DNA from: a virus
Virus record (IMG/VR): IMGVR_UViG_3300020189_000049
Location: 1 to 29,924 of that record
Length of the DNA: 29,924 bases
Reading direction: 5' to 3' (one strand)
The first letter of the stretch is position 1, and every line of letters starts with the position of its first letter. A model generated the notes under the pieces. It searched no databases. It saw only the letters and a program-made list of their open reading frames with translations, and had not been told where the DNA came from. Both the position numbers and the translations under genes were made by a program. Shown here in pieces: positions 7,601-24,100 of the stretch.

Positions 7601-9729
7601 GTAGTATCTCGGTCGCTAGTATAGAAACCACGCGTGAGCTTATTAGTGATAGAGTAGTTTCAAGAGTCTCTATTCCGTTTATGAGAAGTATAAAGGTATT
7701 CTTTAAAGCACAGGGTCTAAGACCAAATACAAGATACTTCGGATTTTTCAATAAGAAACCAGTTGCTAGCTGGCTAAGAGAAGAAGCTTTCCAAAGTGTA
7801 GCATCAAACGTTGTTGATTACGGTGATCAATATGCAAATGCAACAGCTCACCCAGATGGTGCTACAAATCTGATTTCAGATACTAACGGTACTATTACAG
7901 GATCATTCTTTATACCTTCAACAGATTCTACCAAGTTTAGAACTGGTGAGGCAGAATTTACTCTTTTAGATGTTTCTGCATATGACCTAACTGAAGCTAT
8001 TTCACAAGCATCAACAACTTTCATTTCTTCTGGTGTACTAGAAACACGACAGAGAACATTCCTTTCTACGAGACACGTAACACTTACAGGATCTGGTACT
8101 TCTAGAAGAGTTTCTACCCCTGATGGATCTGGTCAGGCCGAGCCCGGTCCAGATCCACTAGCACAAACATTCTTTGTCACAGAAAGAACTGGTATCTTTG
8201 CAACAAAGATCGATATCTTCTTTGAAACAAAAGCATCCGATGGCGTACCGGCATTTGTAGAACTTCGTCCAGTAGTTAATGGTTATCCATCAGCAACAGA
8301 GACATATCCAGGATCAACAGTATTCCTTGCACCTAGCTCTATTACTACAAGTACAGATGCTTCAGTAGCTACAACATTCGAATTCGATGAACCAATCTAT
8401 CTTCCAAATGGTGAACATTGTATTGTAATTGGAAGTGATAGTAACGCATATAAAGCATATATTGCTGAAACATATGCATTTGTATTAGGTACAACTGAAA
8501 GACGTGTTAATAGTCAGCCAACACTTGGTTCACTATTTAAATCTCAGAACGCAAGGACATGGGAGGCAGATCAAACAAAAGATCTTACTTTCCAGCTTTA
8601 CCGTGCAGATTTTGATACTGCAGGTGGTTATGCAATTATTGAAAACGTAGATCTTGCACCAACACTTCTTGCTGGTAGAACACAGTTTGGGGGATTACTT
8701 AATAATCCTCTTACCACAACCAATGGCAGTGCAGTTGTACAGGTCAAACATCCTAACCATGGTCTGTTCGTTGGTAATACAGTAACAATTGCAGGTGCTA
8801 CTGCAACAGGGGGTATTTCAGCAGGTAACCTAAATGGTAATAGAACAATCGTAGCTATTGACGGTACAGGATACACATTCACAGCAGGCGCTTCAGCAAC
8901 AAGTGATGCAGTTGGTGGTGGTACGGCAATTACTGCAAGTCACCAAGCACAAGGTGATATGGCACTACCATTTATCGGTGAACCACTTCTTCCAATCCTT
9001 ACCGATCTTACTTACGAGGCTAAGTTTACTTCTGGTAGATCTTATGCACACTCCGGTGGTTCATTACAAGTACCATATGTGAAAGATACAACATATAGAA
9101 ATATCCAAGATAAATCGCTTATCAGATTTAATTCACCGAAGGTAATTGCAACTGCAACAAATGAAACAAGTGAACTTGGTGCTGGTATTCGTTCAAATAC
9201 TTACAAGGTGAGCTTTAGCACAACAAATTCAAAAGTATCACCTGTACTTGATATGCAACGTGCATCGGTAACAATGATCAATAACATTATTGATAGACCA
9301 GCAGCTGCAGCCGTAGCAGGATCATTCAATGAACCGCTGGACACATTCGTAGCAGAGACTGATCCAGATGACGGTTCAGCACTTGCTAAACACCTTACAA
9401 ATGTTATTGGTCTTGAAGAATCTGCAAAGGGTCTAAAGATCCTGCTTGGTGCAACACGTCCAAATGAAGCAGAAATCGAAGTCTACTATAGAACAAATGC
9501 TGAAGGTGATATTAATGAGGCATCATTTACAGAAGTAACGGTAGAAGGTGTACAACCAGCATCTGATGAAACAGGATTCAGATTTAGAGAATATGAATAT
9601 CTCGCTGGTGGGTTAGGTGGTACGCTTGACGACTTTACAGAATTCCAGGTAAAAGTTGTTATGCTTTCTACCAATAGTTCTAAAGTACCAGTAATTAGGG
9701 ATTTACGAGTGATTGCATTGGCGGTATAA
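4615..9729 (+). CDS. DUF4815-type baseplate/fibre virion protein, 1704 residues
   Basis: The N-terminus (residues about 15-70: 'DDFLDSDNFHRILFNSGKAL', 'QARELTQMQTIIQEEMGRLGRF', then 'FKEG') matches the DUF4815 family, a large structural protein of cyanophages and other marine T4-like phages. A further family element, 'ADIGRLEKRIDNLEELTSLS' then 'LLELD', at about residues 789-815, is a short coiled coil. Between these are long beta-rich stretches. A separable module of about 80 residues (roughly 1362-1441, 'HPNHGLFVGNTVTIAG...GISAGNLNG') looks inserted. The gene lies directly after gp8, the place where T4 has gp9/gp10, so it may do the work of connecting the wedge to receptor-binding proteins; that role is inference. 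It starts 11 nt after gp8 with a TAGGAA ribosome site. One intact frame, no truncation. Confidence 0.82.
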   Translation: MPNTFNSNTFASTYKDDFLDSDNFHRILFNSGKALQARELTQMQTIIQEEMGRLGRFFFKEGAAVEPGGFGVSNPEFIKLNTSVNTLPANPNDLVGVELTSDGGIKVEVQEVLTATASDPATLFVKYTDTSSGTAGATTIRVAQGEDLSGGGYTLTIGSTGTGQTAPIVGRGSKFHNAEGVFFAKDHFVYAPPQSITVAKYSQTPDADLGFLVTEDIVTVDDDDGLYDNQGATPNRSSPGADRYRIRLTLINMADVDSDQNSIEIANMRNGLIEAQIEAEDDLAVIGDILATRTKEESGNYIAKPFQLSFDTDSADTSILNFNVTPGLAYVNGYRAETELFTEVPVLKPRTTVTENNEVSAANFGNYVLALGEDSAGGRNSYGLPNISQFEQFNLRNQVHYGGSTIGTARIKAIEEDTGGNYRLYLFDVQMNAGQAFRRIRSLGTSGTNYFNVDTTGGVKRFDTTVDLDNLIFDLPVTRPRALTDISLTVQRFGSFTATGSVATLTLTAADETFANTTDWIVADSAINTGLAIAGAGTQSATITGVAPGATVDVAYYVNKSNATVRTKTLNTAVTETITPGSDEIVQFSNVDIFKVNSIEDSSGNDISDRYIIDNGQRDDYYARGRLRLRGGAQARGSRAVSVDYDHFSHGAAGSFFAVNSYTGQVNYEDIPSYTYRDGTTVNLRDVLDFRSSVNSSGTFGSGARINEIPQNTDLITTDVEYYLPKNAILVIDTDGVLSVREGQPNLQPQFPSISPDELELFRVQMNPYTVNDSDLVSTRIDAKRYTMADIGRLEKRIDNLEELTSLSLLELDTQAFSVLDSADNTRFKSGIFVDNFADHQRSLTTGIDYRAAIDPQGKVMKPRAIEKNVPLAYDSSQSSNVILKGDNVYLNYTHVSYINQPLASSAINVNPFAVVQGKGKIKLSPASDTWKEIRYNPDRTVSGGTKIRQSDRLLANQQIWNWAGTSINDINVNGVVVGQTLAQQTNNTGDTQTTGSISVASIETTRELISDRVVSRVSIPFMRSIKVFFKAQGLRPNTRYFGFFNKKPVASWLREEAFQSVASNVVDYGDQYANATAHPDGATNLISDTNGTITGSFFIPSTDSTKFRTGEAEFTLLDVSAYDLTEAISQASTTFISSGVLETRQRTFLSTRHVTLTGSGTSRRVSTPDGSGQAEPGPDPLAQTFFVTERTGIFATKIDIFFETKASDGVPAFVELRPVVNGYPSATETYPGSTVFLAPSSITTSTDASVATTFEFDEPIYLPNGEHCIVIGSDSNAYKAYIAETYAFVLGTTERRVNSQPTLGSLFKSQNARTWEADQTKDLTFQLYRADFDTAGGYAIIENVDLAPTLLAGRTQFGGLLNNPLTTTNGSAVVQVKHPNHGLFVGNTVTIAGATATGGISAGNLNGNRTIVAIDGTGYTFTAGASATSDAVGGGTAITASHQAQGDMALPFIGEPLLPILTDLTYEAKFTSGRSYAHSGGSLQVPYVKDTTYRNIQDKSLIRFNSPKVIATATNETSELGAGIRSNTYKVSFSTTNSKVSPVLDMQRASVTMINNIIDRPAAAAVAGSFNEPLDTFVAETDPDDGSALAKHLTNVIGLEESAKGLKILLGATRPNEAEIEVYYRTNAEGDINEASFTEVTVEGVQPASDETGFRFREYEYLAGGLGGTLDDFTEFQVKVVMLSTNSSKVPVIRDLRVIALAV

Positions 9730-9732: not shown

Positions 9733-9957
9733 ATGAAAAGATTAAAGGTGGAAGGCAATCCTAGCCTAGTTCGTGATACAAGATCTGGTGCAATTATTAA
9801 TATAAATAAGAAGGAAATCGACAGAGCAAGAAGATCAAAGGCTGAAAGAAAGAAGAAAGAACAAACTTTCGAAAATCTGCAGGCCGAGGTGAACAACTTA
9901 AAGAATGATGTAAGTGACATTAAAAGACTGCTCGAGAAATTAGTAGAGAACAAGTAA
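9733..9957 (+). CDS. Small basic coiled-coil protein of virion gene cluster
   Basis: A 74-residue protein starting 3 nt after the large DUF4815 gene. The N-terminal part ('VEGNPSLVRDTRSGAIININ', about residues 6-25) resembles a short motif common to small proteins encoded between structural genes of marine T4-like phages. The C-terminal half is strongly charged (Lys/Arg/Glu) with a leucine/valine heptad pattern 'LQAEVNNLKNDVSDIKRLLE', predicting a coiled coil. Its stop overlaps the next ATG by one base. Function is unknown; a small structural linker or assembly chaperone is possible. The opposite strand here also has an open frame, but coupling, codon use and synteny favour this strand. Confidence 0.72.
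   Translation: MKRLKVEGNPSLVRDTRSGAIININKKEIDRARRSKAERKKKEQTFENLQAEVNNLKNDVSDIKRLLEKLVENK
9801..9808 (+). promoter_or_regulatory. Possible intragenic late promoter motif TATAAATA
   Basis: An exact TATAAATA inside the 74-residue gene, about 150 nt upstream of the INEL-repeat fibre gene at 9957. It encodes the Asn-Ile-Asn-Lys part of the protein, so it may be chance in AT-rich codons. It is given because the octamer is otherwise found only at gene boundaries in this window. Confidence 0.3.
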
Positions 9958-11024
9958 TGGCAAAATCATACGTATCACTGTCATCAACCTTCCGAAATCT
10001 TGTTGATCAATTAAATCAACATGAGAACGGAATTGGTGATATTGCTCTCCTTACGACTGGCGATACTACAGGCGCTGACTCTGATCTAGTTGGGGCTGTT
10101 AATGAGCTTGACTCTGATATTGGTGCTAGACCGGCCACTAACTTAAATACTACTGCAAAGACACTTACTGCCGCTATTAATGAACTTCATGATTCTATCG
10201 GCGAGGTAGGACTTAACACTACCTCCACTACTATCAAAGGCGCTATTAATGAACTTCACGATTCAATTGGTGAGGTTGCCTTATCAACAGCAGCTACTAC
10301 AATCAAAGGGGCTATTAACGAGCACGAAACTGATATCGGTAATATGACCCTTACAGGTCTTACAGCTACTGATATTTCTGCAGCATTACGTGAATTAAGA
10401 ACAGAACTTGGTGATCATACCGCACTTACAACGCCAACTACTTCGAATCTCGTTACTGCTATTAATGAACTAGATTCTGATATTGGTAACAGGTCTAGCT
10501 TAACGACTGCTGCAGACCAAAACCTTGTCGTAGCAATTAATGAATTAGATGCTGATATTGGTAGTATGTCTCTTAATACTACCGCATCTAATTTGACAGC
10601 AGCTATCAACGAAATTCACGATTCAATTGGGGAAGTTGGCCTGGCCACTACTGCTACTACAATCAAGGCTGCTATTAATGAATTAGATAGTAGATTAGAT
10701 TCGAATGATACAGATTTCAATAACTTAGTTGGTAGAGCCACACTTACGACAACTGCAACAAAAGCTAGAAGTGCTATCAATGAACTAGATTCTGATATTG
10801 GTACATTAACATCGCTGACTACAAGTGTTAAATCGTCACTAGTTGGGGCGATCAATGAACTGAAAGCTACTGTTGATCTCCTTGATTCCGATGTCTCAAC
10901 AAATCCAGTTGGGGATCTTAATTCATTAGTAACAACAGCAAAATCAAACATAGTGGCTGCTATTAATGAAACATATAATAGAATTCCAAATATATATGAT
11001 TCAGATGGTACACTATTAAACTAA
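9957..11024 (+). CDS. Fibre-like virion protein made of AINELDSDIG repeats
   Basis: A 355-residue protein consisting almost entirely of about 12 repeats of roughly 25 residues. Each has a helical 'AINEL(D/H)(D/S)SIG' part and a linker such as 'LTTTATTIKG' or 'LNTTASNLTA'. This repeat style is known from phage fibres, where it makes trimeric helical/coiled shafts. N-terminus 'MAKSYVSLSSTFRNLVDQLN' is the likely attachment part. The last residues are 'YDSDGTLLN'; a similar ending ('AAGSLLN') closes the 2071-residue fibre at 24335. It overlaps the preceding gene by one base. A role as a tail or whisker-like fibre is inferred; no receptor-binding tip domain is visible, so it may be a connector rather than the distal part. 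Confidence 0.72.
   Translation: MAKSYVSLSSTFRNLVDQLNQHENGIGDIALLTTGDTTGADSDLVGAVNELDSDIGARPATNLNTTAKTLTAAINELHDSIGEVGLNTTSTTIKGAINELHDSIGEVALSTAATTIKGAINEHETDIGNMTLTGLTATDISAALRELRTELGDHTALTTPTTSNLVTAINELDSDIGNRSSLTTAADQNLVVAINELDADIGSMSLNTTASNLTAAINEIHDSIGEVGLATTATTIKAAINELDSRLDSNDTDFNNLVGRATLTTTATKARSAINELDSDIGTLTSLTTSVKSSLVGAINELKATVDLLDSDVSTNPVGDLNSLVTTAKSNIVAAINETYNRIPNIYDSDGTLLN
10086..10971 (+). repeat. About 12 in-frame repeats encoding AINEL...IG units
   Basis: Degenerate in-frame repeats of about 75-80 nt, each centred on a GCTATTAATGAAC-like sequence (variants GTTAATGAG, GCTATTAACGAG, GCAATTAATGAA, GCGATCAATGAA). Silent third-base differences between copies show that most are not recent duplications. 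Confidence 0.8.
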
Positions 11025-11026
11025 GG
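11011..11026 (+). repeat. 16-nt gene-junction repeat, copy 1 (CACTATTAAACTAAGG)
   Basis: This covers the last codons (Leu-Leu-Asn), the stop and the AAGG ribosome-site core before the gene at 11035. The identical 16 nt recurs at 24322-24337, ending the 2071-residue fibre and preceding gp13. Confidence 0.75.
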
Positions 11027-11034
11027 GACAGATC

Positions 11035-12507
11035 ATGGCAATTATTGACGCCCTTCTTAAGATCGACGACGGTGATGGTAATCTTAAAAAAATTACAGCC
11101 ACAGAAGAAAATTATGCAGCATACCAGGCTGGTATCCAACTAGCGCAAGCTGGTCAATCAAAGGTTGCTTCTCTCAGTACCGGTACCGGGAATGTTGTCG
11201 GTACCTATACGAATACGAAGTTCGATCAAGCTGTAGGCACACATCCTGCTTCATCTTTCACCACAACTACTACAAATACTACAATCTATCAAAACACTGG
11301 TACAGCACCAGAAGATCCACCATTTTCTAAACCTGTACTTTGGGATCAAGATCCTGGTGAGATTGAAGCACTGAATGACACGCAGCTTAACGCTGTGGTT
11401 GATCGTCTACTACTCACAATATTTGCTGGTGATTATCCTGGCACTTACAGACTTGCTACATCTGCACCGAGCGCAGATTACTCGGCACACATTGCAAATG
11501 TATTCACAGATACAAGAACTGATGGTACTTCAGTAGATTACACTATTTGGAAACGTCAGGCTATGACGCCACCAACCGTGGTAAAGCCTGTGAGACTTGT
11601 TGAAGGTACTAAAAATCTGCAACGTATGAGTACCGTAGAAATGCAGGCAACGTTTGGCCAGCGTGCAAAAACACGTATTATGTCCACTGGTATTGGTACG
11701 TATCAGTTACGTAGTTCTGCAGATGGCGCGCCGACAGATCCTGGCACATGGGTGGCTAAAGGGACTGCAACAGACACAAAACAACAAACTGCTGATCAGA
11801 ATTATACAAGAGACAGTACAAGAATTTCAACTAGAGATTCAACTCAGAACTTTACAAGAATAAGTCAATCTAATTACGTTTCTAATTATGGGGCCGTGTA
11901 TGATGGTGATTATGTTGGTACCACTCAATACATTGCTGCTGATTATGTAGGGGAATATGCCGGAACGTATTCTGGTGCTGACTTCGAGGGTAACTATACA
12001 GATGACACCTATACTGGTAACTATGTAGCTACATACACAGGTGTGGATACTTACCTTGGTAACTATCTGAGAAACTTCGTCAGAGATTTTGCGACGTGCG
12101 TAAGCTTCAGCGACTTTTTCAATGGCTTTGAAGCCCAAGCTTATAGGCGTCAAGTAGTGTATACTGGTAACTTTGAGCGTGATTTCGTAGGGGATTACGA
12201 AGGTCCTGCTGATTATTCCACGGATTATCTTGGCGAATACACTGGCGATTTTATTGGTAACTATATAAGTAATTATGAAGGTGATTATGCTGGTGATTAT
12301 ACACCAAACTATGTTGGTCCTATTACGTACGTTGGACAGTATGATGCAGCATATCAAAATGAATACACTGGAGATTATACCGGTGACTATGTAGGTAACT
12401 TTATTGGAGATTACTTAGGTAACTATATAGGTGATTACGCTGGAGAGACAATCCAATCGTCAAACGAAACTATTGAAACATATACGTTATATGTTAGGAC
12501 TGCATAA
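11035..12507 (+). CDS. Tetrapeptide aromatic-repeat virion protein, short paralogue (490 residues)
   Basis: A 490-residue protein. Residues 1-about 255 form a non-repeated head shared with the next gene: 'FDQAVGTHPASS', 'TTTTTNTTIYQN', 'YPGTYRLATSAPS', 'NVFTDTRTDGTSVDY' and 'GTATDTKQQTAD' have near-identical counterparts there in the same order. From residue 256 a four-residue repeat with consensus [ND]-[YF]-x-[GRST] (for example DYTG-DYVG-NFIG-DYLG-NYIG) runs to about residue 471, broken once by a Cys-containing module 'RDFATCVSFSDFFNGF'. The C-terminus 'GETIQSSNETIETYTLYVRT' is nearly identical to that of the paralogue. Y-x-G repeat proteins occur in structural gene clusters of marine T4-like phages, but I know no assigned function. 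Only 3 N-[YF]-T sites are present. Ribosome site AAGGGA precedes the ATG; its stop overlaps the next ATG by one base. Confidence 0.75.
   Translation: MAIIDALLKIDDGDGNLKKITATEENYAAYQAGIQLAQAGQSKVASLSTGTGNVVGTYTNTKFDQAVGTHPASSFTTTTTNTTIYQNTGTAPEDPPFSKPVLWDQDPGEIEALNDTQLNAVVDRLLLTIFAGDYPGTYRLATSAPSADYSAHIANVFTDTRTDGTSVDYTIWKRQAMTPPTVVKPVRLVEGTKNLQRMSTVEMQATFGQRAKTRIMSTGIGTYQLRSSADGAPTDPGTWVAKGTATDTKQQTADQNYTRDSTRISTRDSTQNFTRISQSNYVSNYGAVYDGDYVGTTQYIAADYVGEYAGTYSGADFEGNYTDDTYTGNYVATYTGVDTYLGNYLRNFVRDFATCVSFSDFFNGFEAQAYRRQVVYTGNFERDFVGDYEGPADYSTDYLGEYTGDFIGNYISNYEGDYAGDYTPNYVGPITYVGQYDAAYQNEYTGDYTGDYVGNFIGDYLGNYIGDYAGETIQSSNETIETYTLYVRTA
11800..12446 (+). repeat. 12-nt period repeat encoding [ND][YF]x[GRST] units (short paralogue)
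   Basis: About 50 four-codon units such as GATTATGTAGGG, AACTATATAGGT and GATTATGCTGGT, interrupted at about 12070-12175 by the module containing FATCVSF. Synonymous codons vary strongly between neighbouring units, so most of the array is old. Confidence 0.8.
12085..12173 (+). repeat. Cys-module shared with 14097-14182
   Basis: This segment inside the short paralogue's repeats shares a 17-nt block (GATTTTGCGACGTGCGT) and a 26-nt block (12148-12173 versus 14157-14182) with the long paralogue, whereas flanking repeats differ. It encodes 'DFATCV' ... 'FNGF' ... 'RRQVVYTGNF', the only cysteine-bearing part of either repeat region. Confidence 0.75.
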
Positions 12508-15011
12508 TGGCTTTATCTACTTTACAAACCCCGCTTAAGCTCCAGGGGTCTGGGGGTGACTTACAACAATTCGATTCAGATGAATTGGATTACCTTGCAT
12601 ACCGAGCCGGATTAAAATTATCGACTATTGCTAACACCTCAGTATCACGTATTAATTCATCTGGTGCAGGTGCTGATGCTATTGGTACATATACTGACAC
12701 ACAGTTTGATCAGGCTATTGGAACCCATCCAGGTTCATCTCTTACTACCACTACTACGAATACTACCATCTATCAAAATAGTGGTACAGCATCCTATGTA
12801 GATTCTGATGGATTCCGTCGACCACTAGGATTTAAAAGTGACGGTAGTTTCCAAGCCAGAGAGATGGCAGATTCAGATATGAATCTTTTGGTCGATGAAT
12901 TGAATACACGTATTCACACCTACCAATATCCTGGTACTTACAAACTTGCAACATCGGCACCAAGTGGGGATTACACAGCAGCACTATCAAATGTCTTTAC
13001 GGATAATCGTACTGATGGCACGGCGGTTAATTATAGTATTTGGCAACGTACTGCAATGACTGCACCAACTACTACAAAGTATGTACGTATCAAAGGGATC
13101 TATACAGACGAGACAGATCTTGGTGAATCATACGATGGTTTCCAAGAAGCTACTGTTGGTGAGATAGGATACACTTTAGGTAAAGTTGCTCAGAACCGTA
13201 TCATGACAACTGGGATTGGTACCTATGAGCTTCGATCTTCTGCTGCAGGTGCACCATCTGGTGGTACTTGGGTATCACAAGGTACTGCTACTGATACTAA
13301 ACAGCAAACTGCTGATGTAAACTACACACGAGATAGCACACGTAATTCAACAAGAGATTCTACTCAGAACTTTACTCGTAACTCACTACTGAACTACACA
13401 GGTGATTATACAGGTAACTATCTGTCTAACTTTACTAGAGTTTCTACAAATAATTTTGCGGATGCTTTCACTGCAGTCTATGAAGGAACGTATGATGGTA
13501 ATTATGCAGTGGATTACGCTGCTGACTTCATTGGTGATTACATATCCAACTTTACTCGAGTATCTACTGGTAACTATACTGGTAACTATAATCCCGATTA
13601 TACTGGTGACTACACCGGAAATTACCTAAGTAATTTCACAAGAGATTCAACAAGAATATCCAATCAGAATTACACAAGAGAATCTGCAGCAAACTATACT
13701 GGTAATTATATTTCAAACTTTACTCGAGCGTCTGCTGCAAACTATACTGGTGATTATATAGGTGGTAACTTCCTTGGTGACTATACTGGTAACTATGCTA
13801 CAGACTTTACTCGAGTTTCAGCAGCTAACTATACTGGTGACTATGTAGGTGGTAACTTCCTTGGTGATTATACGGGTAATTATACCGCAAACTTTACTCG
13901 AGTTTCAGCAGCTAACTATACTGGTGACTATGTAGGTGGTAACTTCCTTGGTGACTATACTGGTAACTATGCTACAGACTTTACACGTGTATCAACCCGA
14001 AACAGTCAACGAACTTCTACCGTAGATTATACTGGTGACTTTACGGGTAATTATGAAACGGACTATGTAGGTAACTATGTGCGTGACTTCGTGCGGGATT
14101 TTGCGACGTGCGTGCAATTCTCCACCTTCTACAATGGCTTTGCGCGAAGTTTTAGACGTCAAGTAGTGTATACTGGTAACTTCGCTGGTAACTTTGCAGG
14201 TAACTATCTGTCTAACTTTACTAGAGTTTCTACACTCATTTCGACAGCAAACTTCCTGGGAGACTACACCGGTGACTACACTGGGAATTATGTTTCTAAC
14301 TTTACTCGAAATAGCCAGCGCACATCTACTGTAAACTACACTCGGGCATCTGCTGCAAACTATACTGGTAACTATGCTACAGACTTTACTAGAAACTCAC
14401 AACGTACGTCTACTGTAAACTACACGCGAGCATCTGCTGCTAACTACACTGGGAATTATGTTTCTAACTTTACTCGAAATAGCCAGCGCACATCTACTGT
14501 AAACTACACGCGAGCATCTGCTGCGAACTATACTGGTAACTATGAAACAGATTTTACCCGGGTGTCTGCTGCGAACTATACTGGTAACTATGCTGCAGAT
14601 TATACTGGTAACTACATTGGCAACTATGAAACAGATTTTACACGTGTATCAACCCGAAATTCATTAGGTGATTTTACCCGTAATTCGACAGATTCCTACA
14701 CCGGTGATTATGAAACTAACTTTACTAGAAACAGTTTGATACAGTACGCTGGTGATTATGTGGGTCAATACGATCAAGGTTATACGGGTAATTATACTGG
14801 TATAGAATATACTGCAGATTATACTGGAAACTATGAAACAGATTTTACACGTGTATCCACAGACATATATAGTTCAGACTTCATTGGAGATTACGTCGGT
14901 AACTTCATTGGTGACTACATAGGTAACTATATTGGGGATTACCTTGGAGAAACCATTCAGGCAACAAATGAAACGATAGAGACCTATACCTTATACATGC
15001 GTATTGCTTAA
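12507..15011 (+). CDS. Tetrapeptide aromatic-repeat virion protein, long paralogue (834 residues)
   Basis: The paralogue of the preceding gene, 834 residues. Residues 1-about 271 are the same head domain (with a 'YVDSDGFRRPLGFKSDGS' insertion); residues 272-about 814 are repeats; the tail 'GETIQATNETIETYTLYMRI' matches its neighbour. Repeats follow [ND]-[YF]-x-[GRST], mixed with 'RVST', 'RDST', 'VSAA' and 'NSQR-TSTV' units, and are grouped into larger units of 29 residues (about 13780-13980) and 56 residues (about 14275-14510). I count 27 N-Y-T or N-F-T tripeptides. The Cys module 'RDFATCVQFSTFYNGF' occurs once. A fibrous, possibly solenoid or beta-spiral structure with ladders of aromatic residues is inferred from the strict period. 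The gene starts on the last base of the preceding one and ends 13 nt before a gene cassette with two glycosyltransferases. Surface-exposed fibre role likely but unproven. Confidence 0.76.
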   Translation: MALSTLQTPLKLQGSGGDLQQFDSDELDYLAYRAGLKLSTIANTSVSRINSSGAGADAIGTYTDTQFDQAIGTHPGSSLTTTTTNTTIYQNSGTASYVDSDGFRRPLGFKSDGSFQAREMADSDMNLLVDELNTRIHTYQYPGTYKLATSAPSGDYTAALSNVFTDNRTDGTAVNYSIWQRTAMTAPTTTKYVRIKGIYTDETDLGESYDGFQEATVGEIGYTLGKVAQNRIMTTGIGTYELRSSAAGAPSGGTWVSQGTATDTKQQTADVNYTRDSTRNSTRDSTQNFTRNSLLNYTGDYTGNYLSNFTRVSTNNFADAFTAVYEGTYDGNYAVDYAADFIGDYISNFTRVSTGNYTGNYNPDYTGDYTGNYLSNFTRDSTRISNQNYTRESAANYTGNYISNFTRASAANYTGDYIGGNFLGDYTGNYATDFTRVSAANYTGDYVGGNFLGDYTGNYTANFTRVSAANYTGDYVGGNFLGDYTGNYATDFTRVSTRNSQRTSTVDYTGDFTGNYETDYVGNYVRDFVRDFATCVQFSTFYNGFARSFRRQVVYTGNFAGNFAGNYLSNFTRVSTLISTANFLGDYTGDYTGNYVSNFTRNSQRTSTVNYTRASAANYTGNYATDFTRNSQRTSTVNYTRASAANYTGNYVSNFTRNSQRTSTVNYTRASAANYTGNYETDFTRVSAANYTGNYAADYTGNYIGNYETDFTRVSTRNSLGDFTRNSTDSYTGDYETNFTRNSLIQYAGDYVGQYDQGYTGNYTGIEYTADYTGNYETDFTRVSTDIYSSDFIGDYVGNFIGDYIGNYIGDYLGETIQATNETIETYTLYMRIA
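13320..14949 (+). repeat. 12-nt period repeat array with 87-nt and 168-nt higher-order units (long paralogue)
   Basis: About 135 four-codon units. Higher-order copies are almost identical in DNA: 13804-13867 equals 13891-13954 (64 nt, spacing 87 nt = 29 codons), and 14275-14341 equals 14443-14509 (67 nt, spacing 168 nt = 56 codons). All spacings are multiples of three, so the array grows without breaking the frame. Recent duplication or gene conversion is implied by absence of silent changes. Confidence 0.85.
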
Positions 15012-15024: not shown

Positions 15025-15474
15025 ATGAAAAAACAATGGAAACATCCCTTTTGGGAAAATTATCAGAAGGATCGTATTACCTGTAAGTTAGTCATTGAGC
15101 ATGACGATGGTAAAGAAACTTCTTCTACTGCAAAAATCTTCAAGTACACCAGCGGTGGTAAGATCAATCCTGACTGGGAAGAAATTCTAAAGCAGAACGA
15201 TATTGCTAAAATCGATAAAAATACGCAAGAACGCGAAGAGCGACACCGGAAACGTCGTGAAGCTGAGGCTATGCAAAAGAAAGAAAGAGATCAAGCTCAA
15301 AAGCTAGAAGAACTCTTTAATGCAAAGCTAGAGGTATTTGAGATCGATTCCGTTAAGAATTCTTCCAATAGGAAGATGAAGGCGCGTATGCGTAAGTCCA
15401 AAAATCGTTATGAATTGTTGGCCTACACTGTTATGTTATTGAAAGAAGAAATTGAGAATGAGCAATCCGTCTAA
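15025..15474 (+). CDS. Basic coiled-coil protein of unknown function
   Basis: A 149-residue, strongly charged protein. Residues 1-60 contain 'HPFWENYQKDRITCKLVIEH', a short beta-looking segment; residues about 68-100 are a Lys/Arg/Glu-rich run ('REERHRKRREAEAMQKKERD') likely to be a long helix; the C-terminal part 'KMKARMRKSKNRYELLAYTV' is basic and helical. I do not recognise the family. It starts 13 nt after the long repeat protein with a good AGGAAAG ribosome site and overlaps the glycosyltransferase gene by 17 nt, so it belongs to the same transcript as the cassette. A chaperone or assembly factor for the repeat proteins, like the small assembly proteins found next to fibre genes, is a possibility from position only. 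Confidence 0.7.
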   Translation: MKKQWKHPFWENYQKDRITCKLVIEHDDGKETSSTAKIFKYTSGGKINPDWEEILKQNDIAKIDKNTQEREERHRKRREAEAMQKKERDQAQKLEELFNAKLEVFEIDSVKNSSNRKMKARMRKSKNRYELLAYTVMLLKEEIENEQSV

Positions 15475-16270
15475 AGGATTTGTAATTGTAGCTACAAACA
15501 AACCCGCATTCTACTCCTCTGCTATGAATCTCGTAGAATCTATCCTGGATCACTACGAAGATGCAAGAATTACTTTCTTCACTTCCCACCCCGAATGGAT
15601 TGATAACAGAGCAAAAGATTACTGCGAAAATATTCTGGATTGTCCTGAACATATTCGTGGTAAATTGTATGGTATGGCAAACAGCCCGTATGATATAACA
15701 TTCTACGTTGATGCCGATTCTGTTTGTGAGCATGAAGATATTGTAAATGTATGGGATGAACTTGGTGATAATGATCTTTCATTTGTAAGACTTACAAAAG
15801 ACAAGGTTGCTGCAGCCTCTTTTGTAGAGGTTGACGCCCCAATTGAAGGTACCGATAAAGTTATTGATTTGGTTCTATGTGGTGGTGTTTGTCTATATGA
15901 TATGAGAAAACCAATCATTCGAGATTTTATGAAAGATTGGTGGGAGATGTTTCTAGTACAAGAAGAATGGTACAATCATTATAGAGGAAGAGGTTATAAA
16001 CCAACTTCAACCCCATGGTGGCATGAAGGAACACCCATCACTATGTTAAGATGGGATCAATTTACGTTGTGGTGGATGACTAACGAAATGGATAAGTACA
16101 AAGATCTTAAGATAGGTAAATTTGAAGATAACTACAGATGGAATTGGTTTACAAGTTTTAAGTTCAACCAGACTGGATCAAATGCTGGTAAGCACAGATT
16201 AGTGAACAATCCACCAATTATAGTCCATCATTCTGCAACTCTTCAAAAAGATAAGGACTTTAGAGTATGA
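15458..16270 (+). CDS. Glycosyltransferase-like protein with DxD motif
   Basis: A 270-residue protein from ATG 15458 (a TTG at 15452 in frame would add two residues; ATG preferred). Residues 8-25 'GFVIVATNKPAFYSSAMNLV' is a Rossmann-like first strand and helix; 'ITFYVDADSVCEHED' puts a DxD motif at D85-D87, as in metal-dependent GT-A glycosyltransferases that use nucleotide sugars; 'LCGGVCLYD' (about 145-155) fits the acceptor side; 'IIVHHSA' near residues 254-260 gives C-terminal histidines where GT-A enzymes often have a metal ligand. Substrate unknown. The start lies 17 nt inside the previous gene and the end overlaps the oxygenase-like gene by 4 nt. It is one of two unrelated-looking glycosyltransferases in this cassette. 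A target among virion proteins or host surface sugar is inference. Confidence 0.72.
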   Translation: MSNPSKGFVIVATNKPAFYSSAMNLVESILDHYEDARITFFTSHPEWIDNRAKDYCENILDCPEHIRGKLYGMANSPYDITFYVDADSVCEHEDIVNVWDELGDNDLSFVRLTKDKVAAASFVEVDAPIEGTDKVIDLVLCGGVCLYDMRKPIIRDFMKDWWEMFLVQEEWYNHYRGRGYKPTSTPWWHEGTPITMLRWDQFTLWWMTNEMDKYKDLKIGKFEDNYRWNWFTSFKFNQTGSNAGKHRLVNNPPIIVHHSATLQKDKDFRV

Positions 16271-16938
16271 GAGATATTAAAATCAACAATGAGATGGTAA
16301 TGGAATCTTTGAATAAGTTCAAAAATTTTGTTCTTACTAAGTATCAAGAAGGTAACTTACAAAAGGATCTACCTTTAAATTCAAAAGACCACACCAGAGA
16401 CAGGTGGCTTGCGGATGACTATCTTGAAAGAATTATTGCGCGAGGCAGAGAACATGACGGATTTCCAGAGAGTATGCACTCGTATTCTGGTTTGATGCCA
16501 GGGGCAGAAAGAGATACCGGGAATACGGATCTAAAAATTATAGAAGAGTACAGGAATAAAGCCCAAGAATTAAATAATGAATTAATGGCAGAACTTTCTG
16601 CTAAAAGAAATACTCTTGTTACACTCTATCCTCCTGGAGGCTGGATATCTTGGCATAATAATGCAAATGCTGCGGGGTACAATGTTATTTTCTCTTGGTC
16701 AGAAAACGGGGATGGATGGTTTGATTACTGGGACCTTGAAAAGAAAGAACGTGTGAGAGTTCAGGATGTACCTGGATGGCAGTGTAAGATGGGTTACTTT
16801 GGTGCGTACCATCAACCAGATAAGCTCTGTTACCATGCAGCATCAACAGACTGTCTCCGTATTAGTGTTGCATATGTGTTTGCTGAAGCTGAAAACATTT
16901 GGGAACAGATTATTGAGGATATTGAAGATCCGTTATGA
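16267..16938 (+). CDS. 2OG-Fe(II) oxygenase-like protein (HxN variant of metal motif)
   Basis: A 223-residue protein. The C-terminal half has the layout of a double-stranded beta-helix oxygenase: 'LYPPGGWISWHNNANAAGYN' (about 120-139, first metal His = H130), 'FSWSENGDGWFDYWD', then 'CYHAASTDCLRISVAYVF' with distal His H190 and R198 at the place of the 2-oxoglutarate carboxylate-binding Arg. The usual HxD carboxylate is an Asn (H130-N131-N132). Similar 'WHTN..N' proteins are found in cyanophage genomes, often labelled 2OG-Fe(II) oxygenase. N-terminal 110 residues are helical and unassigned. The gene overlaps its neighbours by 4 nt at both ends (ATGA type), showing co-translation with the two glycosyltransferases. 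It may hydroxylate a protein or sugar, or may bind without classical catalysis; the Asn makes activity uncertain. Confidence 0.6.
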   Translation: MRDIKINNEMVMESLNKFKNFVLTKYQEGNLQKDLPLNSKDHTRDRWLADDYLERIIARGREHDGFPESMHSYSGLMPGAERDTGNTDLKIIEEYRNKAQELNNELMAELSAKRNTLVTLYPPGGWISWHNNANAAGYNVIFSWSENGDGWFDYWDLEKKERVRVQDVPGWQCKMGYFGAYHQPDKLCYHAASTDCLRISVAYVFAEAENIWEQIIEDIEDPL

Positions 16939-17702
16939 TTAACGTAGTGTGTGTCAAGACTGGCACCAAATACGAGCCAGAATTTGTTAACAGACTCTAT
17001 AGAATGGTAAGGAAGAATTTGTCTTTACCATTCGATTTTTATTGTCTTACGGAAATCCCAGATGGGTTAGATGATGGGATTAATCCAGTTGATATTTCAG
17101 ATGAGGTAGAAAGTGGTATTGATGGCTTCTGGCCAAAGCTTTGTGTTTTTAATCCTGACCTGTACCGTGAAGGGGGTAGAACACTTTTTTTGGATTTGGA
17201 TGTAGTAATACAGAATAATATAGACTATCTTTTTAGCAATGTAAACCCCCATAAAATAAAAATTTGTTATGGAAGTATCGATTCCCGTATGATGGATGTT
17301 GATATAAAACAACAAAGATACAACTTTACTAAAGTTAATTCATCTATTATGATTTTTAATTCATTTGAATTGCGCGAAATCTATGAGCACTTTGAAGAAA
17401 ACCCATATATTATTATAGATGAATACAAAGGTGTGTGCAGATATTTGTGGAACCTACACAGGGATAAACTAGAGTATCTTGAAATACTAAAAGACTATTA
17501 CCCTGTTACGAATATCCCTGAAATACTACTCAAGGACCGATCGTGGCAAAGTACTGCATATAAATTCAAAGTTAAAAGTCAGAGGTTTGATGGTTCCACT
17601 CAGGGCTATTATATGTCTGAACCAACAATAGCTGTATTCAATGGTGGGGCAAAAGATTTATTCTTGGATTCTGATAACATCTTTTCTTGTTATTATAAAT
17701 AG
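16935..17702 (+). CDS. Glycosyltransferase-like protein, GT-A fold with DLD motif
   Basis: A 255-residue protein. Seen: 'INVVCVKTGTKYEPEFVNRL' then 'YRMVRKNLSLPFDFYCLTE' (residues 2-40), 'GFWPKLCVFNPDLY' (about 64-77), 'RTLFLDLDVVIQNNIDYLF' with DxD at D87-D89, and 'VNSSIMIFN' (134-142). This order fits a family of phage and marine-bacterial glycosyltransferases related to GT8-type enzymes. At the C-terminus, where the family commonly has a metal-binding 'FHG..K', this protein has 'VFNGGAKD' (about 234-241), so a His seems replaced by Asn. It starts inside the stop of the oxygenase-like gene (ATGA). Base use is visibly more AT-rich than in the virion genes (runs such as TTTTTTT and AATAATATAG), suggesting later acquisition. 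The stop codon lies in the first of two late-promoter motifs. Confidence 0.72.
   Translation: MINVVCVKTGTKYEPEFVNRLYRMVRKNLSLPFDFYCLTEIPDGLDDGINPVDISDEVESGIDGFWPKLCVFNPDLYREGGRTLFLDLDVVIQNNIDYLFSNVNPHKIKICYGSIDSRMMDVDIKQQRYNFTKVNSSIMIFNSFELREIYEHFEENPYIIIDEYKGVCRYLWNLHRDKLEYLEILKDYYPVTNIPEILLKDRSWQSTAYKFKVKSQRFDGSTQGYYMSEPTIAVFNGGAKDLFLDSDNIFSCYYK
17694..17701 (+). promoter_or_regulatory. T4-type late promoter motif TATAAATA, first of tandem pair
   Basis: An exact TATAAATA overlapping the last codons and stop (TAG at 17700-17702) of the glycosyltransferase gene, 56 nt before the ATG at 17758. Confidence 0.6.
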
Positions 17703-17757: not shown

Positions 17758-18108
17758 ATGGCAGAATATGAAGAATTCGATGTTGAACAAGGTACCGATC
17801 TTACAGTTGAGCTTCACTTAGAAACAACAGATGGTGCAGCAAAAAATTTAGAAAATCATTCTATTGCTGCAAAGATGAAAAGAAGTTACAGTGACAGTGA
17901 TGGTGATGCTACTACATTCCAGGGACTGCTTATTTCCCCACAGACCGAGGGAAAAGCTACTATTAGTCTAACAAATACTCAAACGGCTGCCTTACGAAAA
18001 GGCAGATATGTTTATGATGTAGAACTATCCTTTGTAGATAGTGATGGTGAAACCGTGATCGAGAGGATTCTCGAAGGAAGAATTAACGTAACACCATCAG
18101 TTACATAA
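17758..18108 (+). CDS. Small Ig-like virion protein
   Basis: A 116-residue beta-rich protein. 'EFDVEQGTDLTVELHLETTD', 'LENHSIAAKMKRSYSDSDGD', 'GKATISLTNTQTAALRKGRY' and 'VYDVELSF..DG..ERILEGRINVTPSVT' give the alternating-strand layout of an immunoglobulin-like or baseplate-adaptor fold. The same arrangement ('QGTDF...GY...AAKMRKSY...G...SL...T..LK.GRYVYDVE...V.EG.V.VTPGV') is common in small proteins next to fibre genes of cyanophages. It is the first gene behind the tandem late promoters and is separated from the 2071-residue fibre by 11 nt, so it is likely expressed together with it as an adaptor or decoration. Function in the particle is inferred. Confidence 0.72.
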   Translation: MAEYEEFDVEQGTDLTVELHLETTDGAAKNLENHSIAAKMKRSYSDSDGDATTFQGLLISPQTEGKATISLTNTQTAALRKGRYVYDVELSFVDSDGETVIERILEGRINVTPSVT

Positions 18109-18119: not shown

Positions 18120-21100
18120 ATGGCCGGAGCTCAAAGAACTATTGTTAAACGCGTCATTGTAGGAACACCTATACGAAGTGTTCGTGCAAGTGGTAGTGAT
18201 TTAAATTTTGCGGGTGACTCTGGTACAGGCTTAGTATCAGTCGGTTCAGCACAAATTCTTACATTTGATGGCGTAGCTCCTCTTACTGCAAAGGTTGGGG
18301 TAGTTGATAATAGAACCGTTACCTTTACTGCAGATAATGCAACAGATTCCTCTGTCGGTGTTGCAAAATTTGATGCAGATCACTTCACCGTTAGTGGTGA
18401 TGGTAATGTTCGAATCAATATGCTTGATTCGTCAGATCAAGTTACACACAGTCTTATTCCTAATGCTGACAGCGCACTTGATCTTGGTAGTGCTACTAAT
18501 AAATGGCGTAAGTTATATCTTTCTGGACAAACTATCCAGCTCGGTACTATTGCTCTTGAAGAATCAGATGGTGGCTTTGCAGTTAAGACCACATCTGGTG
18601 ATCCAGCTGCTTTAAGTCTTGCAGGTAATACAACAAACGACCTTGCTGAAGGAAGTAATAACTTATATTACACAAGGGCACGTGTAGATTCTGCTCTTGG
18701 TGATGCAGTATCAACTGCAACAATCAGAAGTTATTTCCAAGCAATTGATGCAGCTGGGGATGGCACATTTACATATGATTCTGCTACTGGCACATTCACC
18801 TATTCGGGTCTATCTACAGCCCAGGTAAGGGGATATTTCCAGGTACTTGATCAAGGTGGGGATGGATCATTAAGTTATGATTCTGCTACTGGTAATATTA
18901 CATATACTGGTCCAAGTGCAACTGAAGTAAGAGCACACTTCCAGGCACTTGATTTAGGCGGTGACGGATCGTTCAGTTACGATTCTGCTACAGGTAATTT
19001 CTCATACACAGGACCTTCTGCTTCTGAAGTAAGAGCACATCTTGTCGCTGGTACTGGTGTAACATACGAATCATCTGGTGGGGTTATTTCTATTGGACAA
19101 CCAGTTGGTATCAGTGATAACGTTACATTTAATTCTGCATATTTCAGTAGTGGGGTTACCGTACATGGAAATTTAACGGTTGATGGGACAACGACAACAG
19201 TTAATTCAACTGTAGTTAATATCGCAGATAAGAATATTACATTAGCAGATTCTGCAGCCGACCTAACTGCTCTTAATGGTGCTGGTATTACACTTGGTGG
19301 TGCAAGTATTACTACACCTCCGGAAATGAAGTACGTAACATCTGGTGATTTAATTAACTTCAATAGAGCAGTTGATGTTGATGGTGCGGTCACCGCAGAT
19401 TCTGCTACATTTACTAATATCACTCGCTCAGGTGCTACAAGTTATGCTGGAACATGGGGCTCAGCTTCACTTGTTCCCATTGTTACTCTAGACGCTTCAG
19501 GATTTGTTGACAGTATCGGCACAGTATCAGTCGCTGGCGTTAGTAGCACATTATGGGATTCTTCAACAGCGCAATTAGTAATTAATACCGCTGATGGAGG
19601 AATATTCAGAACTACTATTAATGGTTTTGGTGACGATCAAAGATTATACTTTGGTGATGCTAATGAAGCATCGATACGGCATACCACTGGTGGTACAACC
19701 GTTATTGAAGCAGGGGCTACTGAATTAGATCTTGATGGTGCTGGTCATTTCTTAATAAAAAATAATGTCGGTGGTGCTAAAATTGCAGAATTTACTCCTT
19801 TTGCAGGCGTCGATCTATATTATGGAAGTGTTAAAAAATTAGAAACTACATTAACTGGTACTACCGTTACCGGTACGTTGAACGCTGATTCGGCTACAGT
19901 AACAAATCTAACTGCTGATTCTGCAGTAGTTACAAATATATCAGGTACATCAGCAAACTACAGCTCAGTAAACGCTACAACAGGTACGATCAGTCAGCTT
20001 GATGTAGACTCAGCACATATTGGTATTATCGATAATAATACTATTAATACAAATTCATTAAATGCAGATTCTGCTATTGTAACTGATATCTCCGGTGTTA
20101 CTTCTAACTACGCTACTGCACATGCTGCAGCACTTACTGCTGATTCGGCGTCAGTTACTAATATCTCTGGTACATCTGCTAACTACACAACTGTAAATGC
20201 CACAACTGGAACAATTAGTCAGTTCTCTGCAGACTCAGCGCACATTGGCATAATTGATAATAATACATTAAATACGAATGCCTTGGATGCGGATTCAGCT
20301 AATATAACTAATGTATCTGGCTCATCTGCAAATTATAGTACTGGTAATTTTACGACTTTAACCGCTGCTGGACTAACAGTAAATGGAAACATTACGGGTA
20401 CAGGTAACACATATATTGCTGGTAACCTAACTGTTCAAGGTACTACAACAACTGTTAATTCAACAGAAGTTACTATAAATGATAAAAATATTGTACTCGC
20501 TGATTCAGCCGTAAACAATGTTGATATTGATGGTGCGGGATTAACTATTGGTGGCGCATTATACACTGGCGGTACTAAACCGACTATAACATATACCTCT
20601 ACTGATGATCGCTGGGCATTAAATAAAGCATTAAATGTATCAGGTGCAGTAACAGCTGATTCTGCTACAGTAACAAATCTGACAGCAGATTCCGCAGTTA
20701 TTACGGATATCTCTGGTGTTACTTCTAACTACGCTACTGTACATGCTGCAGCGCTTACTGCTGATTCTGCTATTGTAACTGATATCTCTGGTGCTACTTT
20801 AAATTATGGTACTGGTCATATTAGCCAATTTGATGCAGATTCCGCACGTGTACAAACATTAAATACCCATACTTTATCAAGATCCAATACAACTGTAATA
20901 GCAGGAGCTTATGGTTCAGCATCACTTGTTCCAGTGGTAACAGTTGATGCTTCAGGTTTTGTTGATAGTATTGGAACCGTAAGTGTTGCTGGTGTATCAA
21001 GTACATCATGGGATTCATCAGTTGGCGTATTTACAATTAATACTGTTGATGGTGGATCATTTTCAACACCAATCAGAGGATTTGGTGATAACGTATCACT

Positions 21101-24100
21101 TGCATTCGGTGATAACGATGATGCTATTATTAACCGAAATCCTGTTAATTTGGTTATTAAAGATTCCACCGGTGGGATCTACATTGAAGCACAAGACATC
21201 TATCTGTCATCAAAAAATAATGGTAACCCAATTTGGTTGCAAGCTGGTGCGGATGATGGTGTAAAAATCAATGATTCCTCTGGTGATCTTAGGCTTCAAA
21301 CAGTTAGCACCGGTACAAAGGTGTATGGTTCACTCACAGGTGCTACTACTGTATCAAGTACTAATCTAGAAGCTGACTCAGCAGATATTCAAATTATTTC
21401 TGGTAGTATTGCAAGTTACGGATCACTGCTCGGGGATTCAGCCACGATCAGTCAACTATCTGTTGATTCTGCACACATCGGAATTATTGATAACAATACA
21501 TTAAGAACTAATTCGCTTGATGCTGACTCAGCATCATTAACAAATGTATCTGGTAGCTCTGCAAATTATAGCACAGTAAATGCTACAACAGGTACAATTA
21601 GTCAACTTGATGTAGACTCAGCCCATATACAAACACTGAATACACATACACTTACTAGATCAAATACAACGGTAACTGCTGGTGTATATGGTTCGGCATC
21701 ACTAGTTCCTATTGTCACAGTTGACGGATCAGGATTCGTAGATAGTATTGGAACCGTAAGTGTTGCTGGGGTATCAAGCACATCGTGGGATTCTGCAAGT
21801 ACTACCTTTACTATTAATACTGCTGATGGTGGTAGTTATCCGACTATTATAAACGGATTTGGAATACTTCAGGCGGATTCTGCTTCGATTACAAATATAT
21901 CTGGTACGTCAGCAAACTATTCTACAGTAAATGCTACAACAGGTACGATTAGCCAATTATCTGTAGATTCAGCACATATCGGTATTATTGATAATAATAC
22001 ATTAAATACAAATGCACTAAACGCAGATTCTGCAATCGCAACTAATATATCAGGTGTATCACTAAACTATGGTACTGGTCATATTAGTCAATTAACAGTA
22101 GATTCTGCTACAATCACAAGCTTCCAAGCAGACTCAGCTACCGTTGGTGAGATTCAGTTCCAGCTTGGTTGGGCAGATAGTCATATTGGATTTAGAGAAG
22201 GTGCTCTATGGTATGATCCTTTCCATAAGAATCTAAACTATTATACTGATTTCGATCATCCAATTGAAATTGGTATGCAAGAAGTTGAGAGGGTGTACAA
22301 CAACACTGGCGTGGAAATTGCCAAAGGTAAACCACTCTATTACTCAGGTAACTTCGTTAACGATTCTGGCAGAGAATCTCCTACAATTGCTCTAGCAGAT
22401 GCAACAGACGCAGCTAAGTATAACGTTCAGGGTCTTTCAGCAGAAGCTATTCCAAATAACTCTTACGGACAAATTGTTGTATCTGGTGTAATTGATGGCA
22501 TTGACACATCCTCTCTTACTGCAGGTCAAAACTTCTTCGCCGGCCTTACACCAGGTGCACTACAGAATGCTGCCCCGGCTTATCCTAACTTCCCGATGTG
22601 TCTCGGTTGGGTTATTAAATCTGATCCTAATAACGGTAAAGTTATTATCAACCAGCAGAACCATTCGGTTGCTGGATTTAGAGTTCAGTCTGCTGCACAC
22701 ATCGGTGGTGATTTAACTATCGACGGTAACTTAAATGTTACTGGTACACAAACCATTACTTCTACAGCAAATGTAGAAATTGGTGGTAACTTCCAGTACC
22801 TCAATGCTGGTGATACGATTGGTGAGGCTGGTACAAGCTTTGTTGGAACTGGCCTAGATGATGCATTCTACTCTGGACATTACTCAGGCGATGAAGCAAC
22901 TAAGTCATTCTTCGTTAAGATTGACGCTACTGGAACACCTGATACGTTTGAATGGGGATTTGATTCATCTGTCGGTACAGAAGCAACGGGTATTGCTATC
23001 ACAGGCGCTGCTCAGATACTAGACAGTGCGTACGGTATTGAGATCGACTTTGGTGCTACAACCGGTCACACAGTTGGTGATAAATGGACAGGCACAGCTA
23101 CTGCAACAGATATTGATACAGGATTCTTCTCTAACAGAAACGATTCTGCATACACCCACGTTGGTCTATACTTCGACGTATCAGAAAATAAATGGACATT
23201 CCTAAACAGATACGATCCAGAACCAGATGCACCAATTGATCCAAATTCAGCTGGTACACAATATGGTGTAGTTAAAGCAACTACATTCGAAGGTAACTTA
23301 TCAGGTAATGTGACTGGTAACGTAACTGGTTCGCTCACAGGTAATGCTTCAACAGCTACAACTCTTGCAACTGGTAGAAACTTCTCTGCTTCGGGTGATG
23401 CAACAGCACCAAATGTTTCATTCAATGGTTCAGCACCTGTTGATCTAGTACTTACATTAGCAACAGTGAACGGTAACGTTGGATCATTCGGATCTTCATC
23501 ACAGGTACCAGCAATCACTGTTAATGGTAAGGGTCTGGTAACTGCAGTTACGGCAACGAATATTGATCACGATGCTCTTACAAACTTTGTATCCAATGAG
23601 CATATTGACCATACATCAGTATCAATTACAGCAGGAACAGGTCTAACAGGCGGTGGTACAATCGCAGCTACTAGAGATCTTGCTATTGACTCTGCAGAAT
23701 TCCTAGCATATTTCGAAGGCTCTATTAACCACGATAACCTCTCTGGTTTCGTTGCAAATGAGCACATTGACCATACATCAGTGTCGATCACAGCAGGAAC
23801 AGGTCTGACAGGTGGCGGCACAATCGCATCTACCAGAGATCTTGCAATTGACTCAGCTGAATTCTTAGCATACTTTGAGGGTTCAATTAATCACGATAAC
23901 CTCTCTGGATTCGTAGCTGATGAGCATATCGATCACTCATCGGTATCAATTACCGCTGGTACAGGCTTAACGGGTGGCGGTACGATCGCTTCTACAAGAG
24001 ACCTTGCTATCGATTCAGCTGAATTCTTAGCATATTTTGAAAGCTCTATTAACCACGATAACCTAACAGGATTCGTAGCTGATGAGCATATCGATCACTC

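Follow-up and report, generated by a model that had tools for sequence, protein, structure and literature searches.

What purpose do two long arrays of a four-residue aromatic repeat serve in the tail gene cluster of a T4-like phage, and which other genes belong with them? We addressed this question in virus record IMGVR_UViG_3300020189_000049, whose whole stretch of 29,924 nucleotides (29.9 kb; hereafter the window) is a T4-like tail and neck gene cluster. An earlier note had singled out two neighbouring open reading frames in this DNA, both of which exist as it claimed (11035-12507, 490 residues; 12507-15011, 834 residues), and the structural role that it proposed agrees with the phage tail cluster in which the arrays lie. 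Downstream of these repeat proteins (proteins 1 and 2) are a chaperone-like gene, a GT-A-like glycosyltransferase (GTa), a 2-oxoglutarate (2OG)-oxygenase-like protein and a second glycosyltransferase (GTb; Table 1). We found that, in the loci examined, the pair formed by GTa and the 2OG-like protein accompanies the array and is missing where the array is missing, through several switches on a phylogenetic tree; this pair lies outside the region (11800-14949) to which the earlier note was confined and was missed there. The arrays are probably giant loops on a tail-region domain, and the enzyme pair exists, we believe, to modify them. On our best reading, oxidation and/or glycosylation of the array by the phage would produce a decorated filament.

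The association was examined from both sides. We scanned for loci with the 2OG-like protein and with an independent control anchor outside the cassette, the LtfC-like gene at 17758-18108, keeping the best 80 loci of each scan, with distant members (of the L181 type, see below) under-sampled; the collection searches may also omit records very near the window. An array was scored when aromatic triples at i, i+4 and i+8 numbered at least six and exceeded five times the expectation from composition. Loci with less than 4 kb upstream were left out (20 of 82 from the 2OG queries, 17 of 80 from the anchor), as were the window fragments L002-L005 from the locus tables, and enzyme-side counts use 2OG-query loci only, loci found with the repeat protein itself being array-biased. 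The 2OG-like queries gave 82 loci, of which 62 had at least 4 kb upstream; a scored array was present in 59 of these, and GTa and the chaperone-like gene in all 62. After near-copies were dropped, 40 of 43 had a scored array, and the unscored three (L084, L094, L096) nevertheless encode repeat proteins of the [YF]-x-G kind, spaced differently (PYTGDFTRLAQQ in L096 and NFLGVTPANYSGVRP in L094; the one in L084 is short). Both L084 and L092 combine a 2OG-like protein with unscored, differently spaced repeats; the L092 stretch begins inside the array gene, and GTa is not on it.

The anchor returned 63 loci with enough upstream sequence, 56 of them non-redundant. These comprised 27 with array, GTa and 2OG-like protein, none in which the pair lacked an array, 28 with neither and one "array only" (Fisher P-value 8e-15, for rows that are not phylogenetically independent). 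The single "array only" locus, L167, was rejected as an array without enzymes, its repeats belonging to an unrelated fibre with F-rich DSAF/NADF units. This L167 fibre (2677-7728) has Phe at every fourth residue (FDSAFNADFQPVF, FDSGFNASFAAAF) in a sequence unrelated to the arrays, and the enzyme pair is not in the stretch. We repeated the count on the 29 non-redundant loci with the upstream gene s9733 in view, in which the whole interval is visible, and obtained 12 with both, 17 with neither and none mixed (P-value 2e-8). A repeat-less homologue of the array protein occupies the place in 12 of the 17 "neither" loci and other proteins do so in five; a thirteenth repeat-less locus, L163, is a near-copy. 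Among 108 loci found with the N-terminal domain (N-domain) and having at least 3 kb downstream, 105 have a scored array, GTa and the 2OG-like protein. L015, which shows N-domain and array without the pair, was rejected as an exception: the contig stops partway through the second repeat gene. L084 and L092, described above, are the other two of the 108.

Mapped on a tree of the anchor gene, presence or absence of the cassette changes at least seven times (bootstrap range 6-8), with four changes forced by well-supported branches; omitting no-pair loci whose interval is incomplete lowers the minimum to five. These counts are approximate because many inner branches are weak and the anchor is short. 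In one rearranged locus, L094 (735-7320), GTa is flanked by two array genes, the second of which separates it from the 2OG-like gene, and all members are kept. Among named phages, 96 records contained the anchor gene, but Phage C48C1 was the only one with a match to the repeat protein, to GTa or to the 2OG-like protein (for the last, one of 50,697 named phage records); there the repeat protein, chaperone-like gene, GTa and 2OG-like protein follow one another as in the window. The 2OG-like family has at least 589 matching stretches in marine viral contigs. Presence of the system in bacterial chromosomes was considered and rejected: a single scan of genome contigs gave three loci, two of them stretches of one 142-kb contig with T4-like genes (a Sphingobacteriales metagenome-assembled genome, MAG) and the third on a 6.5-kb contig (a Bifidobacterium MAG), and we read them as phage contigs binned with bacteria.

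The repeat itself is confirmed. The arrays occupy approximately 11821-12426 in protein 1 and 13335-14930 in protein 2, so that the interval 11800-14949 given earlier covers both and also takes in the N-domain of the second protein; the estimate of roughly 50 and 135 units agrees with their lengths. Periodicity was scored on slightly wider regions (228 and 552 residues) against 2,000 shuffles. Aromatic pairs at a lag of four residues numbered 33 against 9.4 expected in protein 1 (z 10.0) and 73 against 19.0 in protein 2 (z 15.2), with no shuffle as high in either case; lags 8 and 12 were likewise enriched in both proteins, and the remaining lags up to 12 were near or below expectation. A strict aromatic at each fourth residue, as the earlier note had it, does not hold in full: the periodicity stands, and the strictness gives way to Ser substitutions and register slips. 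Gaps between aromatics (47 in the region of protein 1, 103 in that of protein 2) are exactly four in 31 of 46 and 71 of 102 instances, about one quarter of the units in the long protein have no aromatic and often have Ser instead (DSTR, NSTR, VSTG, ESAA), the long array consists of 10 register runs, and a shared Cys-containing stretch (DFATCV...RRQVVYTG) breaks up both arrays. The unit is better written [ND]-[YFS]-x-[GRST]. I, L, V and M together make up 12% (protein 1) and 10% (protein 2) of the regions; Lys, Trp, His and Met occur in neither window array region, and Pro only once in 552 residues of the long one and three times in 228 of the short one. Eight different DNA words spell the 11 DYTG units of the window, and since the codons for one peptide vary in this way, the repeat is maintained in the protein and does not reflect a recent DNA expansion alone. 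The two proteins are paralogues with 51% identity over residues 6-352.

Related arrays show the same pattern. We clustered 88 and used 87 non-redundant ones for composition: position -1 is N (.40), D (.20) or T (.11), position 0 is Y (.61) or F (.39), position +1 is T (.30), A (.15), V (.13) or S (.12) and position +2 is G (.54) or R (.24). Multiples of four account for 78% of inter-aromatic gaps; none of K, W, H, M and C exceeds 0.4%, and P is 1.3%. As noted earlier, pentapeptide, RTX and triple beta-spiral repeats have other periods (5, 9 and about 15), and we found a period of 4 with no match to Pfam or PHROG profiles for either window repeat protein. The suggestion of an undescribed repeat family is likewise upheld in the libraries searched (Pfam, PHROG, PDB). 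The best PDB sequence match, Glideosome-associated protein 50 (E 0.17), was rejected as a composition match. Pfam gave no match for four long relatives with possible inserted domains; Phage C48C1 (L001 15007-25050) has a 3,347-residue array protein with several non-repeat inserts that resemble small domains and have no Pfam match. Another cassette phage, L158, carries a collagen-like G-Y-T-G-S-[KRV]-G repeat protein (10364-11326) directly after its anchor gene.

How are these arrays placed in the protein? An AlphaFold2 monomer of protein 1, built on a 35-row alignment, had block values of the predicted local distance difference test (pLDDT) of 77-98 for residues 1-250 and 87-97 for residues 471-490, and of about 27-44 for the array, which has no predicted secondary structure in the model, a result that is no proof of disorder. 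The solenoid or beta-spiral proposed in the earlier note found no support here, and its interpretation as a whole is borne out only in part. Predicted strands flank the array before (239-262, 24 residues) and after (463-488, 26 residues), and the secondary-structure string together with the homologues suggests that these two strands pair. In the model, then, the array is an insertion between two strands of one folded domain, to which both of its ends return, and not the free fibrous domain that had been envisaged.

Phages without repeats support this arrangement. In 13 inspected loci a protein of 309-339 residues stands at the same place, mostly between a small tail-fibre-like gene and a chaperone-like gene. 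A profile of the N-domain (48 sequences with recognisable borders entered, 46 kept by hhalign) was aligned to these 13 repeat-less proteins, chosen by gene position, and the two matched at a probability of 98.3% (E 1.7e-14, 239 columns, 15% identity), the match extending to the ...GTATDT... strand that precedes the array. The last residues of the repeat-less proteins (NTYYLKIGK type) resemble the ETYTLYVR end that follows it. The array thus replaces roughly 30 residues (by eye) between the two strands. Array lengths in 67 proteins with the end motif range from 37 to 3,059 residues (median 548), values that are approximate, with the N-domain taken as 262 residues. The strict C-terminal motif is present in 73 of 88 proteins; by eye, a comparable strand ends 13 of the remaining 15, L082 and L083 being the exceptions. 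Pelagibacter phage Mosig EXVC030M carries a repeat-less homologue (QOI69061.1) with 54.6% identity to the L154 member. It shares its domain family and gene neighbourhood with the window proteins, and repeat-less members from viral contigs share the similar C-terminal end, but Mosig differs in having no array and no relative of GTa or the 2OG-like protein in its genome (tblastn, E 1e-3). A fold search with the repeat-protein model gave no match at E<=0.001 in PDB or BFVD and one row of Z 4.1; the N-domain may be missing from the matches because the long low-confidence stretch hides it. By eye, the N-domain (window 11035-11820 and 12507-13334) seems to contain three similar modules, each a helix followed by a GTY...DTR...hairpin, and the array would lie in the hairpin of the third.

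The 2OG-like protein was modelled with a pLDDT of 89.5. Foldseek gave 153 matches at E<=0.001, including prolyl hydroxylases, PolD and AlkB, with the P. putida P4H best (E 3e-6). VIA listed 50 rows, all 50 of them 2OG-oxygenase-type or putative oxygenase entries, such as PHD2 (Z 10.7 over 153 residues, rmsd 3.9) and PiuC (Z 10.6 over 141 residues, rmsd 2.6); these Z values (10.7 and below) exceed the 7-8 given as typical for models without a clear match. The predicted structure has the double-stranded beta-helix fold of the 2OG-Fe(II) oxygenase superfamily. Pfam held no credible match for this protein, and PDB searches with it, with GTb and with three enzyme profiles yielded no usable match. 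In a 21-row alignment H130-x-N132, H190 and R198 are invariant. The two His of the HxD/E...H iron-binding triad are in place and the carboxylate position is Asn; the Arg/Lys expected for 2OG binding follows the second His as an Arg (H190...R198), and 88 of 92 distinct sequences show the Hx7R pattern.

GTa, with conserved DxD and WDQ motifs and a terminal H-x-S...K, shows the DxD pattern in 82 of 88 sequences. When 18 members were compared with Pfam, Glycos_transf_2 was reached in 10 (best E 4e-4) and Glyco_transf_8 in two (best 8.5e-4); PF01501 had no match in the window proteins, and PF03407 matched nowhere and is uninformative. GTb matches the glycosyltransferase profile phrog_1962 (E 2.4e-9 over residues 5-163), and a weak match of its profile to the Skp1 galactosyltransferase (E 1.4) fits and proves nothing. 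Profiles of GTa and GTb compare at a probability of 1.9%, with one 28-column match around DxD. Only some of the cassettes include GTb, which array-less phages carry as well. Relatives of the chaperone-like gene likewise occur in some phages that have no array; among the 29 non-redundant loci lacking the enzyme pair, six had it scored. Repeat-less phages (L109 7832-9987; similar in L112, L118, L133 and L163) have a different conserved block, made up of GTb, a gene of 206-207 aa with no assigned function and a gene of 296-307 aa with a DFD motif, which is possibly a different modification system at the same place.

How might such a cassette work? The 2OG-like protein would oxidise a residue that recurs along the array. 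Among the candidates, N/D at -1 and T/S at +1 come up most often, and Y is abundant as well; with little Pro and no Lys in the window arrays, hydroxyproline or hydroxylysine chemistry is unlikely here. GTa would add sugars to array hydroxyl groups, sometimes helped by GTb. The aromatic and the Gly at +2, as the most persistent residues, may be a recognition motif rather than the site of modification. The four-residue spacing would display modified side chains and aromatic rings at regular intervals on an extended chain. The product would be a decorated filament on the tail, similar to a mucin or a glycofibril, that could serve reach and adhesion to the cell, or shielding.

Several observations weigh against this proposal. 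The metal-binding motif of the 2OG-like family has H-x-N in 92 of 92 distinct sequences where HxD/E is normal; with Asn in place of Asp/Glu catalysis is not assured, and we therefore call the protein oxygenase-like and not a proven oxygenase. Its Foldseek TM-scores are low (about 0.25-0.42 among the rows shown), and one of these rows is an insecticidal Cry protein. GTa reaches Pfam families weakly, the unrelated ExbD being nearly as good (4 of 18 members, at 3.8e-3), the window GTa itself has no match among Pfam families, and glycosyltransferases are carried by phages without arrays too. No array residue is invariant across phages: position -1 may be Q, S, T, G or P, being mostly Gln in L158, Ser/Thr/Gly in L113 and Pro or Asp in L096. 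A 2OG-like paralogue in L181 (37% identity to the window protein) stands among other genes, with neither array nor GTa in its 20.6-kb stretch, while the L180 stretch of the same contig holds a full cassette; because of this paralogue, the family is not confined to an array-associated role. In 12 of the 29 pair-less anchor loci (including L167) the interval extends past the fetched stretch, so an array or pair could lie further upstream. Finally, the cassette genes neighbour each other, and their joint exchange as a block could give the same co-occurrence without any enzyme-substrate relation. The L181 paralogue (9998-10636) has the same HNNAN motif and lies outside the cassette.

If such block exchange were the whole explanation, the cassette would be a recombination block whose two enzymes, GTa and the 2OG-like protein, work in host-surface or metabolic chemistry and travel with the array gene only through linkage. 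The adjacent, often overlapping genes fit this (the gap or overlap between GTa and the 2OG-like gene is at most 100 bases in 128 of 134 cases), as does the paralogue without an array, and 2OG-Fe(II) proteins are described as common in cyanophages, with roles in 2OG/nitrogen signalling and DNA repair under discussion (PMC3037559). Against it, the anchor tree has array and pair changing jointly at least 5-7 times, and L094 retained every member through a change of gene order, and we regard simple linkage as very unlikely to be the answer. An array that folds by itself into a regular fibre, for example a beta-spiral, an aromatic-ladder beta ribbon or an intertwined trimer, with the enzymes acting elsewhere (on the large fibre 18120-24335, for instance), would account well for the strong period, the fixed aromatic phase over long stretches and the Gly at +2; the 24- and 26-residue strands at the array ends could continue as a ribbon, and the tail-region location is suitable. 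The low pLDDT and lack of secondary structure across the array speak against such a fibre, as do register slips, spacing variants such as PYTGDFTRLAQQ or NFLGVTPANYSGVRP and the absence of the enzyme pair, too, from array-less phages in 17 non-redundant whole-interval loci; it seems unlikely to us.

A disordered, sticky low-complexity region, with Tyr/Arg stickers and Gly/Ser/Asn spacers acting as an adhesive or gel whose stickiness the enzymes only tune, is quite unlikely as well. The composition (T, Y, G, R, N and S, with K, C, W, H, M and P scarce), the lack of a predicted fold and lengths from tens to about 3,059 residues all fit it; the four-residue spacing is more regular than sticker-spacer behaviour requires, however, and stickiness alone leaves the link to an oxygenase-like protein and a glycosyltransferase unexplained.

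Known systems offer partial parallels to a modified array. By repeat length the closest are the freshwater glycofibrils of CryoSeek II, which reportedly have linear tetrapeptide repeats with a modified proline plus Ser/Thr; in both, a linear repeat of four residues could be the core that a glycan coat surrounds, but a modified proline in every repeat, as is said of the glycofibrils, has no counterpart here, where Pro makes up 1.3% of array residues. Among working analogues, mimivirus L230 comes closest: it hydroxylates Lys of a viral collagen-like protein and adds glucose (PMC9614988). There too viral 2OG hydroxylase and glycosyltransferase activities act on a short-period repeat protein of the virus itself. 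L230 differs, as described in that source, in being one bifunctional protein with an HxD motif that acts on Lys of Gly-X-Y collagen; the window has two separate genes for predicted enzymes, HxN, a period of 4 and a bacteriophage setting, and its arrays contain neither Gly-X-Y repeats nor Lys. Phage-encoded glycosyltransferases have been proposed to modify a structural protein of mycobacteriophages, where the target is the capsid and the abstract mentions no repeat array or oxygenase partner (PMC11256854). In the open-access literature searched, mostly titles and abstracts, we found nothing on this repeat family and no description of a phage oxygenase paired with a glycosyltransferase to act on a repeat protein.

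More tentatively, and at somewhat less than even chances, widespread uncultured marine T4-like phages may build a new class of modified filament in which the repeated residue of an aromatic tetrapeptide loop, up to about 3,000 residues long, is oxidised by a dedicated HxN-type oxygenase and then glycosylated by GTa at a four-residue pitch, with chemistry on Asn/Asp, Thr/Ser or Tyr instead of Pro/Lys. If so, it would be a phage counterpart of collagen-type modification, with oxygenase, sugar transferase and short-period repeat all encoded in one cluster. It would also assign a function to a family common in marine viral contigs yet nearly absent from named phages, provide a genetically tractable glycofibril and be one possible source of the glycan-coated tetrapeptide fibrils from natural waters. 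With this proposal one can test whether phages oxidise and glycosylate tail proteins of their own, and for what reason the oxygenase-like family retains HxN.

The features of the window are collected in Table 1.

Table 1. Coordinates of the cassette and of surrounding tail and neck features in the window.
Feature	Coordinates	Strand	Remarks
gp9/10-like N-terminus	2195-3220		
DUF4815	4615-9729		
Gene s9733	9733-9957		PHROG "virion structural protein"
Repeat protein 1, 490 aa	11035-12507	+	folded N-terminal domain ~1-262, array ~263-464, C-terminal strand ending ETYTLYVRTA
Repeat protein 2, 834 aa	12507-15011	+	array ~277-808; paralogue of protein 1
Chaperone-like gene, 149 aa	15025-15474	+	next after array gene; name inferred from position only
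GTa, GT-A-like glycosyltransferase	15458-16270	+	conserved DxD, WDQ, H-x-S...K motifs
2OG-oxygenase-like protein, 223 aa	16267-16938	+	double-stranded beta-helix fold (AlphaFold model)
GTb, second glycosyltransferase	16935-17702	+	phrog_1962 match
Flanking anchor gene, LtfC-like beta-sandwich	17758-18108	+	PF23926 E 0.0015, below curated cut-off
T4 neck protein PF11649	25109-25996		E 2e-39
T4-type large terminase	27130-28722		

Neighbouring cassette genes overlap by their coordinates in the list of open reading frames, and the stop of protein 1 overlaps the start codon of protein 2 (TAATG). Several relatives of the anchor gene carry the annotation "L-shaped tail fiber protein assembly". Both named phages with relatives of the window proteins, Phage C48C1 and Pelagibacter phage Mosig, are assigned to Kyanoviridae. 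A scan of the region against shuffles counted 36 promoter-like sites against 28.4 (sd 5.2) and nine terminator-like sites against 4.1 (sd 2.7), and these were not used. Beyond the anchor gene, 18120-24335 encodes a fibre-like protein of 2,071 residues with internal repeats of 102 and 162 bases; EF-hand-like Pfam matches below the curated cut-off lie near its DQGGDGS/DLGGDGS motifs, which look like possible calcium sites.

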